From Acidobacteriota bacterium (GTDB lineage Bacteria; Acidobacteriota; Terriglobia; Bryobacterales; Bryobacteraceae): DNA of 64,000 nt. The stretch is from assembly GCA_016201205.1 (NCBI GenBank), contig JACQDF010000158.1, forward strand, positions 1-64,000. The letters run 5' to 3'. Below are positions 14,949 through 26,771 of this stretch, one piece after another (within the stretch, counting starts at the first letter, position 1; each line of letters opens with the position of its first letter). The notes beneath the pieces are model-generated. The model was not told the DNA's origin, ran no database searches, and saw only the letters and a program-made list of their open reading frames with translations. The position numbers and the translations under genes are program-made.

Positions 14949-15567
14949 ATGGCTGCCGGCGGCCATGCTGCTGGCCGCGTGTGGAGGCGGGCCGGAAACG
15001 AAAAAAGCCGCAGCGCCGCCGGAGAAAGCGCCGCTGCCCGATGTGTACAAGGTAAAGCTCGACACCAGCAAAGGCGACATCGTGGTCGAGGTCAACAAGG
15101 AATGGTCCCCGCGCGCCGCCGGGCGTTTCTTCGAGCTGGTGCAGGCCGGCGCCTACGACGGCTCGCGCTTCCATCGCGTGATTCGCGGGTTTGTCGCTCA
15201 GTTCGGCATTCACGCCGATCCCAGGCAGGGGCAGTTGTGGCGCGATCTGCGCTTTCCCGATGAGCCGGTGAAGCTCTCGAACAAGCGTGGGACGCTGAGT
15301 TTTGCCCATAGCGGGCCGCACACGCGGGCGGTGCAGGTGTTCATCAACCTGCGCGACAACCGAACACTCGACAAGCAAAGCTTTCCGGCGTTCGGGCGTA
15401 TAGTCGAGGGCCTCGAGGTGGCGGACAGGCTGGCGTCCCTCTATGGCGAGCTTGCACCGAAGGGCGCCGGGCCGGATGGCGTGAAGGCGGAACTGGAAGG
15501 GAACGCGTATCTGGAGCGGGAGTTTCCGCGCCTGGATTACATTAGGAAGGCAGTGGTGGTGCCGTAG
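14935..15567 (+). CDS. Lipoprotein cyclophilin-type peptidyl-prolyl cis-trans isomerase
   Basis: LLAACGGG lipobox-like; GRFFELVQAGAYDGSRFHRVIRGFVAQFG; GTG start chosen at 14935 (upstream ATG 14920 possible). Confidence 0.85.
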   Translation: MTRNKWLPAAMLLAACGGGPETKKAAAPPEKAPLPDVYKVKLDTSKGDIVVEVNKEWSPRAAGRFFELVQAGAYDGSRFHRVIRGFVAQFGIHADPRQGQLWRDLRFPDEPVKLSNKRGTLSFAHSGPHTRAVQVFINLRDNRTLDKQSFPAFGRIVEGLEVADRLASLYGELAPKGAGPDGVKAELEGNAYLEREFPRLDYIRKAVVVP

Positions 15568-17685
15568 ATGGCTTCGAAAGCCAGCGAAGCGAAGATCCGG
15601 GCGTCGATCGAGCGTGAGGTGATCCGCCCTGTGTTTGCGCCGCACCTCAGGAAGACGAAGGATGCCTCGCTGCCGCCGGTCATTCTGGCGAACCGGCGCA
15701 CCCGGGCGATGCAAAGAATCCTCGAGGCGCTGGTCTCGCGCGGCTCGGCCAAGGCGCCGCCCAAGCTGATCGAGGAGGTGAACGACCTGGTGCGCCGCTG
15801 GGCCGCCGAATCCTTTGCCGACAGCTTCGCAGGCGTGGAAGAGTTCGAGATTCGCGCTGCCGATGAGCGGGATCTTGTGCTGGCGGAGGAATCGGGCGAT
15901 GAAACGAAGCTCCTGCGCATCCTCGATCAGCGTTACCGCGAACGAGTCAGGAAAGAGTACGGCACCATCGAGCTGCGCGGGGTCCAGACAAATCATCGCG
16001 TCTGGCTGGATCTGGAGCAGATTTATGTGCCGCTTCGCCTGAAGAGAAGTCCTCTGCTGGAGGAGGAGGGCGGATTCCTGCCCGGAGAGGAGTCCGTGCC
16101 GGCAGAGGAGGCGCTGGAAAAGCACAAGCGCCTGCTGATCGTCGGGGCTCCGGGAAGCGGCAAATCGACTCTGGCCGGTTATTTCGCCACCAGGCTGGCG
16201 GCCGGGACGCCGCTGCCGCTGGTGGTGACGGTGCGCGCGATCAATTCCATTTCTCTGACCGCGCCAGGTCTTGCCAAACAGCTTGAAGTGGATGAGCGCC
16301 TGGTGCGGCATGCGCTCGAGGAGCAAACGTGCGTGTTGCTGGTGGACGGAGCCGACGAGGCGCCCGAAAGGCTGCGCGCCCAACTGACTTCCGCAATCGA
16401 GGGGTTGGCGAGAAGGCATCCGGAAGTGCAAATCGTGGTGACCAGCCGGCCCGCCGGATCACCGGGCGAAGTGGAGAAGAGTTTTCCGGGCTTCGAAGCT
16501 TTTCATCTGGCTGACTTTGGCTCCAAGGATGTCGAGAGATTCGTCGACAAGTGGTGCCTGGCGGCGGAAACGAGCGTGCGGAGCGACCGCTCGCAGGCGG
16601 AGCGGGACGCACGCAAGGCTGCCGAGGACCTGAAGGTGCGCATCCGCAAAAGCCGCTCCGTGCAGCGCATTGTAGTGAACCCCTTGCTGGCGACGATCGT
16701 CTGCGTCGTGCACCGGTTCCTGGGAAAGTTTGTTCCCGAGCATCGCGCGGTTCTGTACGAGAAGTGCACCGATGCGCTGCTCTATGAGTGGGACCGGGCG
16801 AAGTTTCATGAGGGCGCGGCCATCGGCGAACTGGATGCCCGGCAGAAGCGGACTCTGCTGATGGGAGTGGCGCGCGCATTGCACGAATCGCACGAGGCGG
16901 AGATTGCCGAGAAAGATGTCATCAGGCACTTCCGCAAGACTTTGCCGGCGATCGGCAAGTCGAGTCTGGATGCCAAGGCGTTGGTGACGCAGATCCGGGA
17001 CCGCAGCGGGCTGTTAGTCGAGCGGCGGCCGGGCTTCTTCACGTTTTCGCACCTTACGTTTCAGGAGTACCTGACAGCTCTCGACATGGTCGCCAGGCGG
17101 GAATGGGCAGGTCTCGCCTCGCACTATGACAACCGATGGTGGCACGAGGTGATCGCCCTTGCCGCGGGCGCCGAGGGAAGCGACGCCGGGGCAATTGTGA
17201 CAAAACTGCTGGCAAAGCAGGATCCTGCCGCCGTGATTCTCGCGGCGACGTGCCTGGAGACGGCGATTCAGGTGCCGCTGAAGCTGCGGCAGAGGGTGGA
17301 AAACGAAATCGGCAAGCTGATTCCGCCGCGGGATCATAAGACGGTGAGAATGCTTGTCAACGTAGGCGACGTCGCAGCGCCGCTCTTGATGAAGACTTTG
17401 CCAACGTCGGAAGGGCGGGCGAGAAGCTTGATTCTGCTTGCCCTTCTGGATATCGACTACGAGCCTGCAATCCCGGCGATTGCAGCGTGTGTCCCGGACG
17501 AAAGCCCGTCGCACTTCCGGAATCTGACGATCGGCGAATTCGCCGCTACGATTCTGGGTGTCAAGGGCAGTTTGTATTCGACCGTCGCCAGGGCCGCCAT
17601 TGCGGATGCCCTGCAAGCGCGCATGGTCAAGAAAGCTTTGCCTGCGGGCAAGCGGCGTTCCAGGCCCGTAAGAAGCACTGCGTAA
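15568..17685 (+). CDS. NACHT-domain STAND NTPase (bacterial NLR-related) with C-terminal helical repeats
   Basis: Walker A LLIVGAPGSGKST; Walker B CVLLVDGADEAPE; sensor-like QIVVTSRPAG; FSHLTFQEYLTAL; N-terminal RVRKEYGTIELRG...QIYVPLRL linker. Confidence 0.85.
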   Translation: MASKASEAKIRASIEREVIRPVFAPHLRKTKDASLPPVILANRRTRAMQRILEALVSRGSAKAPPKLIEEVNDLVRRWAAESFADSFAGVEEFEIRAADERDLVLAEESGDETKLLRILDQRYRERVRKEYGTIELRGVQTNHRVWLDLEQIYVPLRLKRSPLLEEEGGFLPGEESVPAEEALEKHKRLLIVGAPGSGKSTLAGYFATRLAAGTPLPLVVTVRAINSISLTAPGLAKQLEVDERLVRHALEEQTCVLLVDGADEAPERLRAQLTSAIEGLARRHPEVQIVVTSRPAGSPGEVEKSFPGFEAFHLADFGSKDVERFVDKWCLAAETSVRSDRSQAERDARKAAEDLKVRIRKSRSVQRIVVNPLLATIVCVVHRFLGKFVPEHRAVLYEKCTDALLYEWDRAKFHEGAAIGELDARQKRTLLMGVARALHESHEAEIAEKDVIRHFRKTLPAIGKSSLDAKALVTQIRDRSGLLVERRPGFFTFSHLTFQEYLTALDMVARREWAGLASHYDNRWWHEVIALAAGAEGSDAGAIVTKLLAKQDPAAVILAATCLETAIQVPLKLRQRVENEIGKLIPPRDHKTVRMLVNVGDVAAPLLMKTLPTSEGRARSLILLALLDIDYEPAIPAIAACVPDESPSHFRNLTIGEFAATILGVKGSLYSTVARAAIADALQARMVKKALPAGKRRSRPVRSTA

Positions 17686-18379
17686 GCGCCGCCGAATAGA
17701 ACATTTTCCGATCGCGAACGCGCGCCAGGTGATCTTTGGCCTGCTTCAACCCGGATCTCCTGTTCTTCCTGAACGCACCGATGCATGTGTTCACCTGCTG
17801 AATCACCCCGAACTCGACGTGCATTCTGCGATGGCGTACGAGCGGTTTGCGGTTGAGGTCAAAGTCCGTAATGGTCACGTTGGTGTCCGAATCGGCCTTG
17901 CGTGCATTCACTGATCCGTCCTGCTGAAACTGGAGGCGCTTCGAGGGGTCCTTGCTGCCGTCCGGGCGGAGGTAGCTTCCTTTGTCGGGCCACTTGTCGC
18001 TCTTGGCGCCATTGCAGCCGCCGCAGGCAAGGAAATAGTTGTTCCAGTTATAGGCCAGCGTCGGGAAAAGACTCTTGGGCTTGAAATGCTCGACCTGGCC
18101 CTCGCGCTTCGAGCCGATGGGATGCTCGCAGTAAGCGCATTTGTCGTTCGACATTGCGGCGAGCTGCGGCTTGGCGGCGCCCCAGATCGTCGGGAATTTT
18201 TTCTTCTTTAGTGTGTCTCCGGCAAACTCGGAAAAGACCTTCGCTTTCCGCTTTGCCAACGGCTGCTTCTCGAACGTCCTGGCCGCTTTCTTGAACTTCT
18301 TTACATTCGGCAGGGCCTTGCTCACCTTCTGCGGCCAGTCCGCGGGCGCCTTGACATTCTTGCGACTGAGCCGGATCAT
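17627..18379 (-). CDS. HNH endonuclease, PtuB/TIGR02646-like
   Basis: CAYCEHPIGSKREGQVEHFKPKSLFPTLAYNWNNYFLACGGCNGAKSDKWP. Confidence 0.85.
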   Translation of the reverse strand: MIRLSRKNVKAPADWPQKVSKALPNVKKFKKAARTFEKQPLAKRKAKVFSEFAGDTLKKKKFPTIWGAAKPQLAAMSNDKCAYCEHPIGSKREGQVEHFKPKSLFPTLAYNWNNYFLACGGCNGAKSDKWPDKGSYLRPDGSKDPSKRLQFQQDGSVNARKADSDTNVTITDFDLNRKPLVRHRRMHVEFGVIQQVNTCIGAFRKNRRSGLKQAKDHLARVRDRKMFYSAALTQCFLRAWNAACPQAKLS

Positions 18380-19671
18380 CAGCCCTTCCCCCTGCTGATC
18401 CGGCGGAGCAAATCTTTGGCGAACGCGGCCTGGAGGCGGGCCAGTTGGGCTACCGTGGAGCCGTCAGCGCGGCGGCGATCCTCCTCCATCACCAGCTTTT
18501 CCATCTCGTCGAGATCCGAGGAGAGCTGTCTCAGCTCGTCCTCGGTCGCCGTGCCGCGGTTCACCTTTTTTCGCAGCGCGTCGATGCGGTCCTCGATGGC
18601 GGCGTATTGGGTGGAGTAGCGCGACGAGAGGCCGAAAAGGTCCTCCCCAAAGAGCACGGACCCGACCTCCGCCCCCTGCCATTTCCTCATCGCCGCAGGC
18701 CCGAGCTTATGAGCCGTGACCGCGCCCTCCTTTTCCCGAAGGATCACCACCATCCGCGAGTCGTCAATCGCTCCTTGCACAACCATCGGGGAATGCGTGG
18801 TCAGAAGAAATTGCGTGTTGGGGAAGAGGCGCTTGAGCTGGCTGACAACGGTGCGTTGCCAGCGGGGATGCAGATGCAGATCCACTTCGTCGATGGCGAC
18901 GAACGCTTCTCCTTCGAGCGGATCAGCCAGCGATGGGAACAGATAAGCATAACGGAGCAGCAGATCGAAAATCACCACGAGCAACGCCTGATAACCGTCC
19001 GAAAGCTCGCGGAATTCGAGTGGCAGGCCGTTGCGCACCACTCTGGGGACGTAGCCGAACTTGCCTTCCTCCATCTGGATTCCGGAGAGCCCGCTTCCCA
19101 GCTCCGGCAAAGAACTGTTCAGACGGTTCCAGATGCGCTCGAGGCGTTGCTCGGACTTGCGGCCGAAATCGAGTGCGACCAGGTAGCGAGCCAGGTCGCG
19201 CAGCAGGTTGTTATCCGGGCGGTCGAGCGTAATGGTGCGTCGCGTGCCTGCGTAATGCGCCAGGTCGCTCAGGATGACGCTGGGCTGCGGCACGGCCCGA
19301 GCGCTTTCCGGCTCATCGGGCGAAAACACGCGGCGATAGCGGCCATAAGCAAACAGATAGCGTCTTTCGGGAAGAGTCCGGCGTTTCAAGGGACGCAGGC
19401 TCCAGCGCGCCGAGGGACGGGATGAGCCTCGTTCAGAGAGCGAGATCTCGCCGGAACTTGCGCCGCGGCGCAGAGGAAACTCGGTGAGACCTTCATCTGT
19501 TCCGTAGGTGAGCGAAGAGACGGCTTCCACCAGCGTGGTCTTGCCCGAGCCGTTGTTGCCGATCACAACGGTGACATGAGGGTCAAGCGGGACGACAGTG
19601 TCCTTAAAACATCGGACATTTTTGAGGTGAAGCCGCTCAAATGGACTGGATTTCAATGTGGAAAGCGCCAT
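18379..19671 (-). CDS. AAA/ABC-type ATPase, PtuA/OLD-like
   Basis: VTVVIGNNGSGKTTLVEAVS, FRELSDGYQALL signature, EGEAFVAIDEVDLHLHPRWQ Walker B, FLLTTHSPMV; stop/start overlap with HNH gene. Confidence 0.87.
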   Translation of the reverse strand: MALSTLKSSPFERLHLKNVRCFKDTVVPLDPHVTVVIGNNGSGKTTLVEAVSSLTYGTDEGLTEFPLRRGASSGEISLSERGSSRPSARWSLRPLKRRTLPERRYLFAYGRYRRVFSPDEPESARAVPQPSVILSDLAHYAGTRRTITLDRPDNNLLRDLARYLVALDFGRKSEQRLERIWNRLNSSLPELGSGLSGIQMEEGKFGYVPRVVRNGLPLEFRELSDGYQALLVVIFDLLLRYAYLFPSLADPLEGEAFVAIDEVDLHLHPRWQRTVVSQLKRLFPNTQFLLTTHSPMVVQGAIDDSRMVVILREKEGAVTAHKLGPAAMRKWQGAEVGSVLFGEDLFGLSSRYSTQYAAIEDRIDALRKKVNRGTATEDELRQLSSDLDEMEKLVMEEDRRRADGSTVAQLARLQAAFAKDLLRRISRGKG

Positions 19672-22866: not shown

Positions 22867-24466
22867 ATGGCGCAAATCACGGAGCGGTACGCGGATAAGA
22901 TCGCTGGAGTGTTGGGTTGCTTCGACCGGTTGATCGTCACAGGGACGTTGCCGAACGGAGCGGTACGCGGATAAGATCGCTGGAGTGTTGGGTTGCTTCG
23001 ACCGGTTGATCGTCACAGGGACGTTGCCGACGTTGTGCTACGCCGATGGCATGACGAAGTACCTGTCGGCACGGGGCATCCGGATCTTTGATTTTGTCGG
23101 CTTCGCCAAGCCGCTCACCGAAGCGATCAAGGCCAATGCCGAAGCGCTGGCCGCAGCGGCTGGCTTGCGCATCGACTACATCCGCAAGAAGAACTTCCGG
23201 AAGGAAGACAAGATCAAGGCGGTTCTGAAGGAACGCGGCGAGAAGCCGGGATTGGTGTGGGTGTTCTCAGCGCTGGAGCCGTGTACTACCTATCAGCCTT
23301 GGCACGACAAGACCACCGGGAGGACGTTCCTACGCTACGACGATGGCAAGTGCCTGCACTACTACTTCTACTTCCTGGATGAAGAACTGGGGCTGTGCTA
23401 CGTGCGAGTACCGACGTGGTGTCCCTTCCGGCTGCAGTTCTACTGCAATGGACACAACTGGCTGGCGCGGCAACTGGAGCGGCGCAAAATCGCCTACCAG
23501 ATGCTGGACAACGCCTTTGTGGAGATCGGGGATTGGGCCCGGGCACAGCACATTGCCGATGACTGGAAGCCCGAGCGGTTGCACCACAGACTGGATGAGT
23601 TTGCGCGACGCTACTGTCCGATTTTCCCCCGGATTGAGGCGTCCTATCACTGGAGTCTGGACACAACCGAGTACGCTACCGACATCGTGTTCGATCGCCA
23701 AGCAGATTTGCAGGGACTGTATGGGGAGCTGATCCGCACGGCGATTCACACCGTCAAACCCGATGATATCGCCACCTTTCTGGGCAAGAAGCTGAACGGC
23801 AACTACCAGGACGAAATGGGCAACCGCTACAACGTGCGCCTCGAAGGCACGCGTGTCCGCCACTCGATGGGCATGGCATCGATCAAAATGTACGACAAGT
23901 TCGGCCGCATCCTTCGCATCGAGACCACGGCGAAGGATGTCTCCTTTTTCAAGCACTACCGCGAGGTAGAACAACGCAACGGCGAATCGGTGATGAAGTT
24001 CGCGCCGATGAAGAAAACCATCTACAGCCTGGGTGCACTACGGGAACTGTTGAGTGCGGCCAACCGCCGCTACCTGGAGTTCCTTTCGGCCATCGACGAT
24101 CCCAGCAACGGCATCGACAAGCTCCACAAAATCACGCGGACCGTTCACGAGGAGGCACGGTCGTATCGTGGCTTCAACTTTTTCGACACGGATGACGAAG
24201 CTCTTTTTGTGGCTCTTGCCCGCGGAGAGTTCACCATTAGCGGGGTGCAAAACAAAGCGCTACGCGCTCGCTTCCCCCAATACAACAGCGGCCAAATGTC
24301 CAGGATCCTACGCCGGCTTCGCACGCACGGGCTCATCAAAAAAGCCAGTCACTGCTACAAGTACTACCTGACAGTGCTTGGAAAACAGGTCGTCGCGCTG
24401 GGCCTCAAACTCAAGGAACTGGTAATCATTCCAGACCTTGCCGCGGCCGCTGTGCCCTCTTGTTGA
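22867..24466 (+). pseudogene. Uncharacterised about 508-aa protein of suspected mobile origin, frameshifted by 76-bp duplication; remaining ORF 22985-24466
   Basis: From ATG 22867: MAQITERYADKIAGVLGCFDRLIVTGTLP then frameshift to stop at 22972-22974; downstream ORF restarts as (V)LGCFDRLIVTGTLPTLCYADGMTKY. Removing 76 bp restores a 508-codon frame. C-terminal winged-helix-like region. Confidence 0.7.
22879..23030 (+). repeat. Perfect tandem direct duplication, 2 x 76 bp
   Basis: 22879-22954 and 22955-23030 are identical when read letter by letter. Confidence 0.97.
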
Positions 24467-24477
24467 TTCAACATTCT

Positions 24478-26771
24478 GCCAATTTCGGCAAGAACCTAAC
24501 TACGTAGGTACTAACGTGACCGCCCCCCCGCAACTGGCGGCCTACAACTGGGCCCTGAGCAAGACCTACACGGTAGACCAGCGGCAGGTAGGGGTGCGGA
24601 TCGACCACGTGTTGAGCGACCGCCAGCGCCTGTTCGGACGATTCGGGTTCCTCGACCGCATTCAGGAGGCCGAGGATCTGTTCTACGGCGCCACTTCCTA
24701 CCCGGTGAGCGGCGGAAGCGATCTGGGACGCCTCTTCCGGCGGCGCATCAACGTGAGTCTCGACGATACGATCGTTCTGTCTCCGTCCTTGGTGGGATCG
24801 GTTCGCCTCGGTGTGCTGAGCTATGTCAGCGACTCTCGCGGCGGGGCCGCCGGCGCCGATCCGGGCGACCTGCAACTGCCCGATGTGATTGTCCGCAACC
24901 AGGCTTTCCGCGGATGGTCCAACTTCGACCTCGGTGAAAACCTGCCGGTCATCGGCGCCAGCCAGTCCTTTTCGCGTGAGATGGTCTATTCACTGCTGTC
25001 GACCTGGACCAAGCTCACCGGCCGCCACGCCACCAAGTTCGGAGTGGACTACCGGCTGGCGCGCAACAGCAACGTTTCTCCCGGCGGCAACGCCACCGGT
25101 TCGTTTTCGGCCGGACCGGCGTTCACCCAATCGGATCCGTTCAATCGCAACGCCGCCAACACGTCCGGGTCCGGAATGGCCTCGGCTCTGCTTGGCTTGG
25201 CCGACTCGGGCAGCTTCGGCTTTAACAGCCCCACCTCGATTCAGAACCACTACTACGGTCTGTTCGTGCAGAACGACTGGAAACTCACCAACAGGCTGAC
25301 CATCAACGCCGGACTGCGATACGAGCTCGAGATGCCGTACACGGAGCGCTACAACCGCAACAGCTACCGCTTCGATGAGAATGCGCGGCTTCCGGTGGCG
25401 GTCCCCGGGCTGGACCTTCGGGGTGGCATCCTGTTTGCCGGAGTCGATGGGAACGCGCGGGCGATCAGTCCCGACAGGAACAATTTCGGTCCACGGATCG
25501 GATTCGCCTACAGCCCGTTCTCCAAGACGGTGATTCGCGGCGGCTATGGGGCTTTCTATTCGACCATTTCGCTGAACACCGGTTTCTTCGGCACGCTCAA
25601 CGTGTTCAACGCGCAGACGCCATTCGTCGGCACCATCGATGGCGGAGCCACGGCGTTCACGACGCTGGCCAATCCTTACCCGGCCGGTTTGCAGCAGCCG
25701 GTCGGCAGTTCCGTCGGGCTGAGGGCGCAGTTGGGCGACGCGCTGAGCTTTTTCGACGACCGGCGGGTCAATCCATACAACCAGCAATGGCAATTCGGCG
25801 TCCAGCGGGAGCTGCCCGCGCGGATCGTGTTCGAGATCGCCTACATGGGCATGCACAGCCTCAAGCAGGTCGAGAGCTTTAACCTGAACGAGAAGCCTGA
25901 CACGTATCTTGCGCTCGGGCGCGCGGAAAACAACCCGGTGCCGAATCCGTTCCGGAACGTCTTTCCGGCCACCTCGACACTGGGCGGAGGGAGCACCATC
26001 ACGCAGAACCGCCTGTGGGTGCGCTTCCCGCAGTTCACGTCGCTGACGCTGCAAGGCGCCAACACCGGGCGGGCGCTGTACCACTCGATGCAGATGAAGG
26101 CGGACAAGCGGCTCAGCAAGGGGCTCAACGTATTGCTGGCCTACACGTTTTCGCGGCTGATGGACAACAACACCACCAGCGTGATCAACGTCCGGCGCTA
26201 CCGTTCGGTGTCGGGGTTCGATCAGAAGCGCGTCATGCGGCTGGCGTTCACGTATGCGCTCCCGTGGCGGTTTCAGGGGCGCGGGATGAGCGCGGTCTGG
26301 CGGCAGGCGTTCGGAGGGTGGGCCATGAGCGGATTCGGAACACTGGCGAGCGGAACTCCGCTCTCGGTCTCCCAAGCCAACGGGCGTCCGCTCCGCGTCG
26401 AGAATCCACGGCTGGAGGGGCCGATCAGCTCCCGGCTGGGCGATCGCGTCCAAGCCGGCCGGGTGGTGAATCCCTTCTTCAACATCAATGCATTTCGGCC
26501 GCTGGCCGACCAATACACGATCACGCCGGAGCCGCCGAGTCTGGACGAATTACGGGCGCCCGGCGCCCGGTCTCTCAACCTCGCTTTGTTCAAGGCTTTC
26601 CCCATCCGCGAGCGGCTGAAGCTCGAGGTGCGGATGGAAGCCACGGGCGCCACCAATACGCCGAATTTCTCCGCTCCTGGGACGAACATGAACCAGACGG
26701 CCACCTTCGGAGTCATCAGCTCGGCCGGCGGCAGCCGCGCGATGCAGGGTTCGGCGCGGCTTGTGTTTTGA
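24478..26771 (+). pseudogene. 5'-truncated TonB-dependent (Oar-like) receptor
   Basis: Beta-barrel region with LTINAGLRYE, NFGPRIGFAYSPFSKTVIRGGYGAFY, C-terminal ...GSARLVF; lacks signal peptide, regulatory and plug domains seen in the intact receptor at 40479-43697. Confidence 0.8.

Follow-up and report, generated by a model that had tools for sequence, protein, structure and literature searches.

Does a bacterial NACHT ATPase encoded tail to tail with a Septu nuclease pair work together with it, or do two defense systems share one locus? The question is raised by a 64,000-nucleotide stretch of an Acidobacteriota soil bacterium (contig JACQDF010000158.1 of assembly GCA_016201205.1; hereafter the window), part of a 7.0-Mb draft genome whose closest named relatives are Bryobacterales/Solibacteraceae. 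A sequence-only reading of positions 15568–19671 had proposed a NACHT NTPase facing a PtuAB (Septu)-like ATPase–HNH pair, possibly as a composite antiphage system, and the three open reading frames (ORFs) are indeed uninterrupted there. As genomic fact, the composite idea holds up under sequence comparison: the convergent arrangement of NACHT, ptuB and ptuA recurs in three phyla as an inherited unit of three genes, and one relative encodes a NACHT-PtuA fusion. We narrowly favor the view that the cassette encodes an NLR-regulated Septu system.

Conservation of the NACHT-PtuAB cassette

Among 150 genomes of the family we identified five close relatives of the NACHT protein (47–50% identity). One (G072) was cut by a contig end and left out as untestable; at the other four loci, the best PtuB homologue (38–46% identity) was directly convergent to the NACHT gene. 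A NACHT scan of 84,980 species genomes returned nine loci (five in Acidobacteriota, three in Sorangium, and one in Thiodictyon), eight of which had PtuB-PtuA convergent to NACHT; the ninth was Sorangium cellulosum So ce26. A fourth Sorangium locus also carries all three genes. Counting the window and G072, 12 loci had a close NACHT relative and 11 were testable. The sequence-only reading had named co-occurrence as a check on its proposal, and NACHT faces ptuB-ptuA tail to tail in 10 of the 11 testable loci, with a ptuB remnant in the 11th.

The two halves do more than lie side by side. They are convergent, as had been described, and their 3′ ends also overlap, by 59 bp in the window and by 56, 56, 59, 62, 80, 83, 86, 86, 104, and 152 bp across the 10 measurable loci. 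Convergent overlaps of this size (56–152 bp) are probably unusual. All 10 lengths are equal to 2 mod 3, which places the genes in the same phase, and the conservation of this phase across the divergence points to a single ancestral NACHT/ptuB arrangement. The genes flanking the cassette vary among the genomes examined.

Members of the NACHT-PtuAB clade are rare: none beyond those above was recovered when the class (299 genomes), the order of Sorangium (184), and Myxococcota (379) were searched by sampling. Plasmids, phages, and viral contigs contained distant NACHT relatives only, those on viral contigs having no PtuAB in the DNA examined, and the best plasmid relative of PtuB (Methylocystis parvus) has PtuA and no annotated NACHT nearby. 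A second candidate NACHT/PtuB neighborhood (G003:C594, L056) was not counted: about 2.4 kb with other ORFs separates the genes, and the contig ends inside PtuB. We also identified, in the Umea genome, a gene divergent from ptuA (L041, 9441–12446) for a WD40-Roc GTPase-DUF4365 protein, a conflict-type architecture.

Co-inheritance of the three genes

The NACHT-linked proteins are monophyletic in the trees of both PtuB (10 of 59 sequences, support 0.984) and PtuA (10 of 40 sequences, support 1.0). Pairwise tree distances among eight taxa correlated between NACHT and PtuB (0.933), NACHT and PtuA (0.965), and PtuB and PtuA (0.921), with Mantel p values of 0.00015, 0.00015, and 0 of 20,000, respectively. 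Controls were taken from either side. Of 46 other PtuB loci fetched from the family with their surroundings, some on short contigs, none contained a NACHT match; three more PtuB loci stood outside this set (the fusion locus treated next, L057 with a NACHT gene ~11 kb away, and the uncertain L056). Likewise, PtuA and PtuB were found at none of 21 other NACHT loci, mostly within about 1.5 kb on each side. These two controls and the comparative evidence exclude NACHT and PtuAB as chance neighbors.

One genome with the cassette, G067, also encodes a physical union of the two halves, on a different contig. There, a single 1261-amino acid ORF joins DUF4062 (3.8e-17), NACHT (4.2e-15), and a PtuA-type AAA_21 region (PtuA, 92.6 bits) and is followed on the same strand by a PtuB gene that overlaps it by 59 bp (L055, 4795–9421). 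The Walker and HNH motifs are present. Other PtuA homologues of the same family, also next to PtuB, carry an N-terminal TIR domain (L119, 4027–6255) or HEAT repeats (L118, 1–2232), and PtuA thus accepts varied added modules.

Features of the encoded proteins

Profiles for NACHT, PtuA, and PtuB all matched, and every catalytic residue that was checked is present (Table 1). The NACHT domain (PF05729, E 8.4e-13) spans residues 189–330 and has the intact Walker A and B motifs noted in the sequence-only reading. That reading also described an uncharacterized N-terminus of about 180 residues. The region has no Pfam match, and hence no Pfam effector domain, in the three homologues scanned; AlphaFold2 predicts it to be a five-helix region of ~132 residues plus a linker. 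Foldseek matched the NACHT model (mean predicted local distance difference test score, pLDDT, 81; predicted template modeling score, pTM, 0.64) to NLRP3, NLRC4, and NOD2 (E about 1e-11, probability 1.0), with NLRP3 and NLRC4 ranking highest. Template modeling (TM) scores against the NLR structures were low (0.2–0.4) and the matches therefore support the fold type only. About 150 residues of predicted helices form the C-terminus, with a weak HEAT_2 match (E 0.23). The last 18 residues, which lie within the ptuB overlap, are predicted to be disordered, whereas the end of PtuB is modeled as a confident helix, suggesting that selection in the overlap may act mainly on PtuB.

The ptuA and ptuB genes are co-directional and adjacent, and one base is common to the stop codon of ptuA and the start codon of ptuB (TGATG, 18379), as expected from the overlapping Septu-like pair previously described. 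Sequence searches of the PDB matched PtuA to its counterparts from retrons Ec78 and Ec83 and from Septu, with Ec78 and Septu best, and PtuB to retron PtuB. Across nine PtuA sequences, the Walker A K44, the LSDGY signature, the Walker B D261/E262, and H293 of the H-loop are invariant. PtuB (Pfam HNH, 2.5e-5) has H98, N114, and zinc cysteines C81/C84/C119/C122 that are invariant in the alignment of the NACHT-linked clade. Within the EHF...N motif, H98 and N114 have a spacing of 16 residues, as do H75 and N91 of Septu EcB88; in EcB88, these two PtuB residues and K43 and D316 of PtuA are essential (PMC13096335). The best PtuB model had a pLDDT of 81 (58–65 for the other four), and the PtuB model matched retron Ec78 PtuB (E 3.6e-7, TM 0.57/0.69). 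Furthermore, the nearest NCBIfam models are those of retron Ec78 PtuA (1.4e-46) and PtuB (1.5e-18), both matched below the curated cut-offs.

Table 1. Coordinates and supporting evidence for features of the NACHT-PtuAB locus in the window.
Feature	Position	Strand	Evidence
NACHT STAND ATPase, NLR-like, 705 aa (N-terminal helical region, NACHT, winged-helix region, short helical C-terminus)	15568–17685	+	Pfam, AlphaFold2, Foldseek
N-terminal helical region, residues 1–132, five helices, no known family	15568–15963	+	AlphaFold2 secondary structure
Walker A GAPGSGKST, residues 193–201	16144–16170	+	G193, P195, G196, G198, K199, S200, T201 invariant in 8 homologues
Walker B LLVDGADE, residues 257–264	16336–16359	+	D260, D263, E264 invariant
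FSHLTFQEYL motif, residues 493–502, characteristic of NACHT modules at their winged-helix end	17044–17073	+	F493, S494, H495, T497–Y501 invariant
Tail-to-tail overlap of NACHT and ptuB 3′ ends, 59 bp	17627–17685		
ptuB, PtuB HNH nuclease, 250 aa	17627–18379	-	PADLOC PtuB 1e-32, alignment, structure model
ptuA, PtuA ABC-type ATPase, 430 aa	18379–19671	-	PADLOC PtuA 2.2e-52, PDB PtuA matches

Relationship to known defense systems

Each half is of a known kind: by sequence-based membership, the PtuAB half is Septu and the other half is NACHT/NLR. Like Septu (EcB88 and the E. coli structure 8eea), the locus has an overlapping ptuA-ptuB unit for an ABC-type ATPase and an HNH nuclease with the catalytic residues kept. 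However, Septu consists of ptuA and ptuB only, whereas here a dedicated NACHT gene lies opposite them in every testable relative (opposite a remnant in one). Type I-A retrons (Ec78/Eco7) also place a PtuAB effector pair beside a third component, and the PtuB model is nearest to Ec78 PtuB. In these retrons the additional component is a reverse transcriptase with msr-msd; here neither is present, and the third component is the NACHT ATPase on the opposite strand.

The NACHT protein resembles bNACHT proteins (bNACHT25 and, in clade 14, bNACHT02 and bNACHT12) in its central NACHT domain with Walker A and B, its FSH.TFQEY region, and its helical C-terminus. It also shares with clade 14 the absence of a recognizable effector domain, a likeness of features rather than of clade placement. 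The bNACHT proteins in the publications consulted are single-protein systems (PMC12169576), in contrast to the constant nuclease partner found here. The protein also differs from the STAND proteins of AVAST (Avs) systems: up to E 1, its PADLOC matches included no Avs model and only weak P-loop matches. We found no paper naming both PtuA and NACHT in the open-licence PMC literature; subscription papers and preprints were mostly outside this search, and a prior description is possible.

A proposed mechanism and its alternatives

The simplest joint reading of these features is that the NACHT protein would act as sensor, with PtuAB as the effector that it commands in trans. We infer the following order of events. 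The C-terminal helical region of the NACHT protein would sense an infection cue, and the protein would oligomerize through its ATP-bound NACHT module. The oligomer would then engage the PtuA-PtuB complex and license it, either directly or via the N-terminal helical region. The HNH site of PtuB would cut either tRNA of the host or DNA of the phage, the nucleic acids targeted by the PtuAB systems studied so far, and cleavage would stop phage growth, probably with growth arrest. PtuAB would thus provide in trans the effector that is not recognizable in the NACHT protein itself. In response to phage, bNACHT proteins set off an effector at their N-terminus, although none is recognizable in some of their clades (PMC12169576). 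Septu EcB88 cuts the variable loop of tRNA-Tyr (PMC13096335). In retron-Eco7, the effector PtuAB arrests growth and depletes tRNA-Tyr, and the reverse transcriptase plus msr-msd restrain it (PMC11555353). Another Septu has been reported to act on DNA, as cited in PMC11555353. A broader version of the proposal, to which we give somewhat less than even weight, is that PtuAB is turned on in trans by the NACHT protein and is a plug-in effector that can serve retrons or NLRs (fused or in trans) or act alone; the conserved antisense overlap might keep the expression of the two arms in balance.

Several observations weigh against NACHT control of PtuAB. The two halves are on separate strands, which implies separate transcription. 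In So ce26 the NACHT ORF is intact, PtuA is gone, and PtuB is reduced to a C-terminal remnant (L050, 10198–10578). In a Thiodictyon metagenome-assembled genome (MAG), two frameshifts that may reflect a pseudogene or an assembly error split the NACHT ORF, and the PtuB and PtuA ORFs are intact (L054, 7911–9746). Thus, unless the latter is an assembly error, a genome may tolerate either half by itself. Elsewhere, both PtuAB and bNACHT proteins are able to defend without a partner of the other kind (PMC13096335, PMC12169576). Furthermore, a second NACHT-PtuA fusion was found neither in 347 Acidobacteriota genomes nor in plasmids, and the PtuA and PtuB of the known fusion fall outside the NACHT-linked clade, indicating that the union of NACHT and PtuA probably arose at least twice.

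These observations keep open, chiefly through the losses in So ce26 and perhaps Thiodictyon, a reading in which bNACHT and Septu are two independent systems co-inherited as a mobile cassette, each against different phages, with the overlap only keeping them linked. The autonomous relatives of each half, the separate strands, and the differing flanks of the cassette are consistent with it. We consider it unlikely nonetheless, though worth weighing, against the strictly exclusive partner clades of single origin, the concordant distances of the three proteins, the NACHT-PtuA fusion, and the lack of a recognized effector domain in the NACHT protein. Among STAND proteins, activation is the usual role and restraint is not. 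This general pattern argues against an alternative that we regard as improbable, namely that PtuAB is a toxin and the NACHT protein an ATP-dependent antitoxin that releases it on infection, by analogy with the reverse transcriptase and multicopy single-stranded DNA (msDNA) of retron-Eco7. Eco7 PtuAB is toxic alone and neutralized by the reverse transcriptase plus msr-msd (PMC11555353), and the loss of PtuAB from So ce26 with its partner kept is the order that a toxin-antitoxin pair permits. However, the genes are convergent and not co-transcribed, and the Thiodictyon MAG, if real, keeps its PtuAB ORFs beside a frameshifted NACHT gene. Finally, the locus could hardly be a degraded type I-A retron with the NACHT gene beside its effectors by accident, even though PtuA and PtuB are nearest to the retron Ec78 effectors in the PDB and NCBIfam. 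All RVT_1 matches of the genome are on other contigs, and none of ten flanking proteins scanned from relatives is a reverse transcriptase. An Rfam search over 14.5–20.8 kb returned no msr and only one chance-level match (E 0.9) to another family. We therefore rejected a type I-A retron identity or origin, as the locus has neither a reverse transcriptase nor an msr.

Genes flanking the cassette

Upstream of the NACHT gene are polA and then a cyclophilin gene, whose stop codon abuts the NACHT start codon (TAGATG, 15565–15570). This junction could translationally couple NACHT to the housekeeping operon. We sought an empty site and could demonstrate none: polA-cyclophilin is kept in the genus and the genes that follow vary between genomes. 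Downstream, on the forward strand, are a gene (22985–24466) for a 493-amino acid protein without a Pfam match, which has one paralogue in the genome (30%), and, directly after it, an outer-membrane beta-barrel gene (24438–26771). The latter matches its Pfam profile only from position 134 on, a pattern that would fit an insertion by which the 5′ part of this gene was lost or shifted elsewhere.

Implications

NACHT is the type of switch behind human inflammasomes, and in this cassette it faces a two-gene Septu nuclease. If the two halves are coupled, the pairing would address at once how Septu senses phage and how bacterial NLRs without a recognizable effector domain act, in a three-gene system small enough for testing in a laboratory strain. 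PtuAB would then be a shared effector module, a role suggested both by its presence in retrons and by the NACHT, TIR, and HEAT modules found fused to it.

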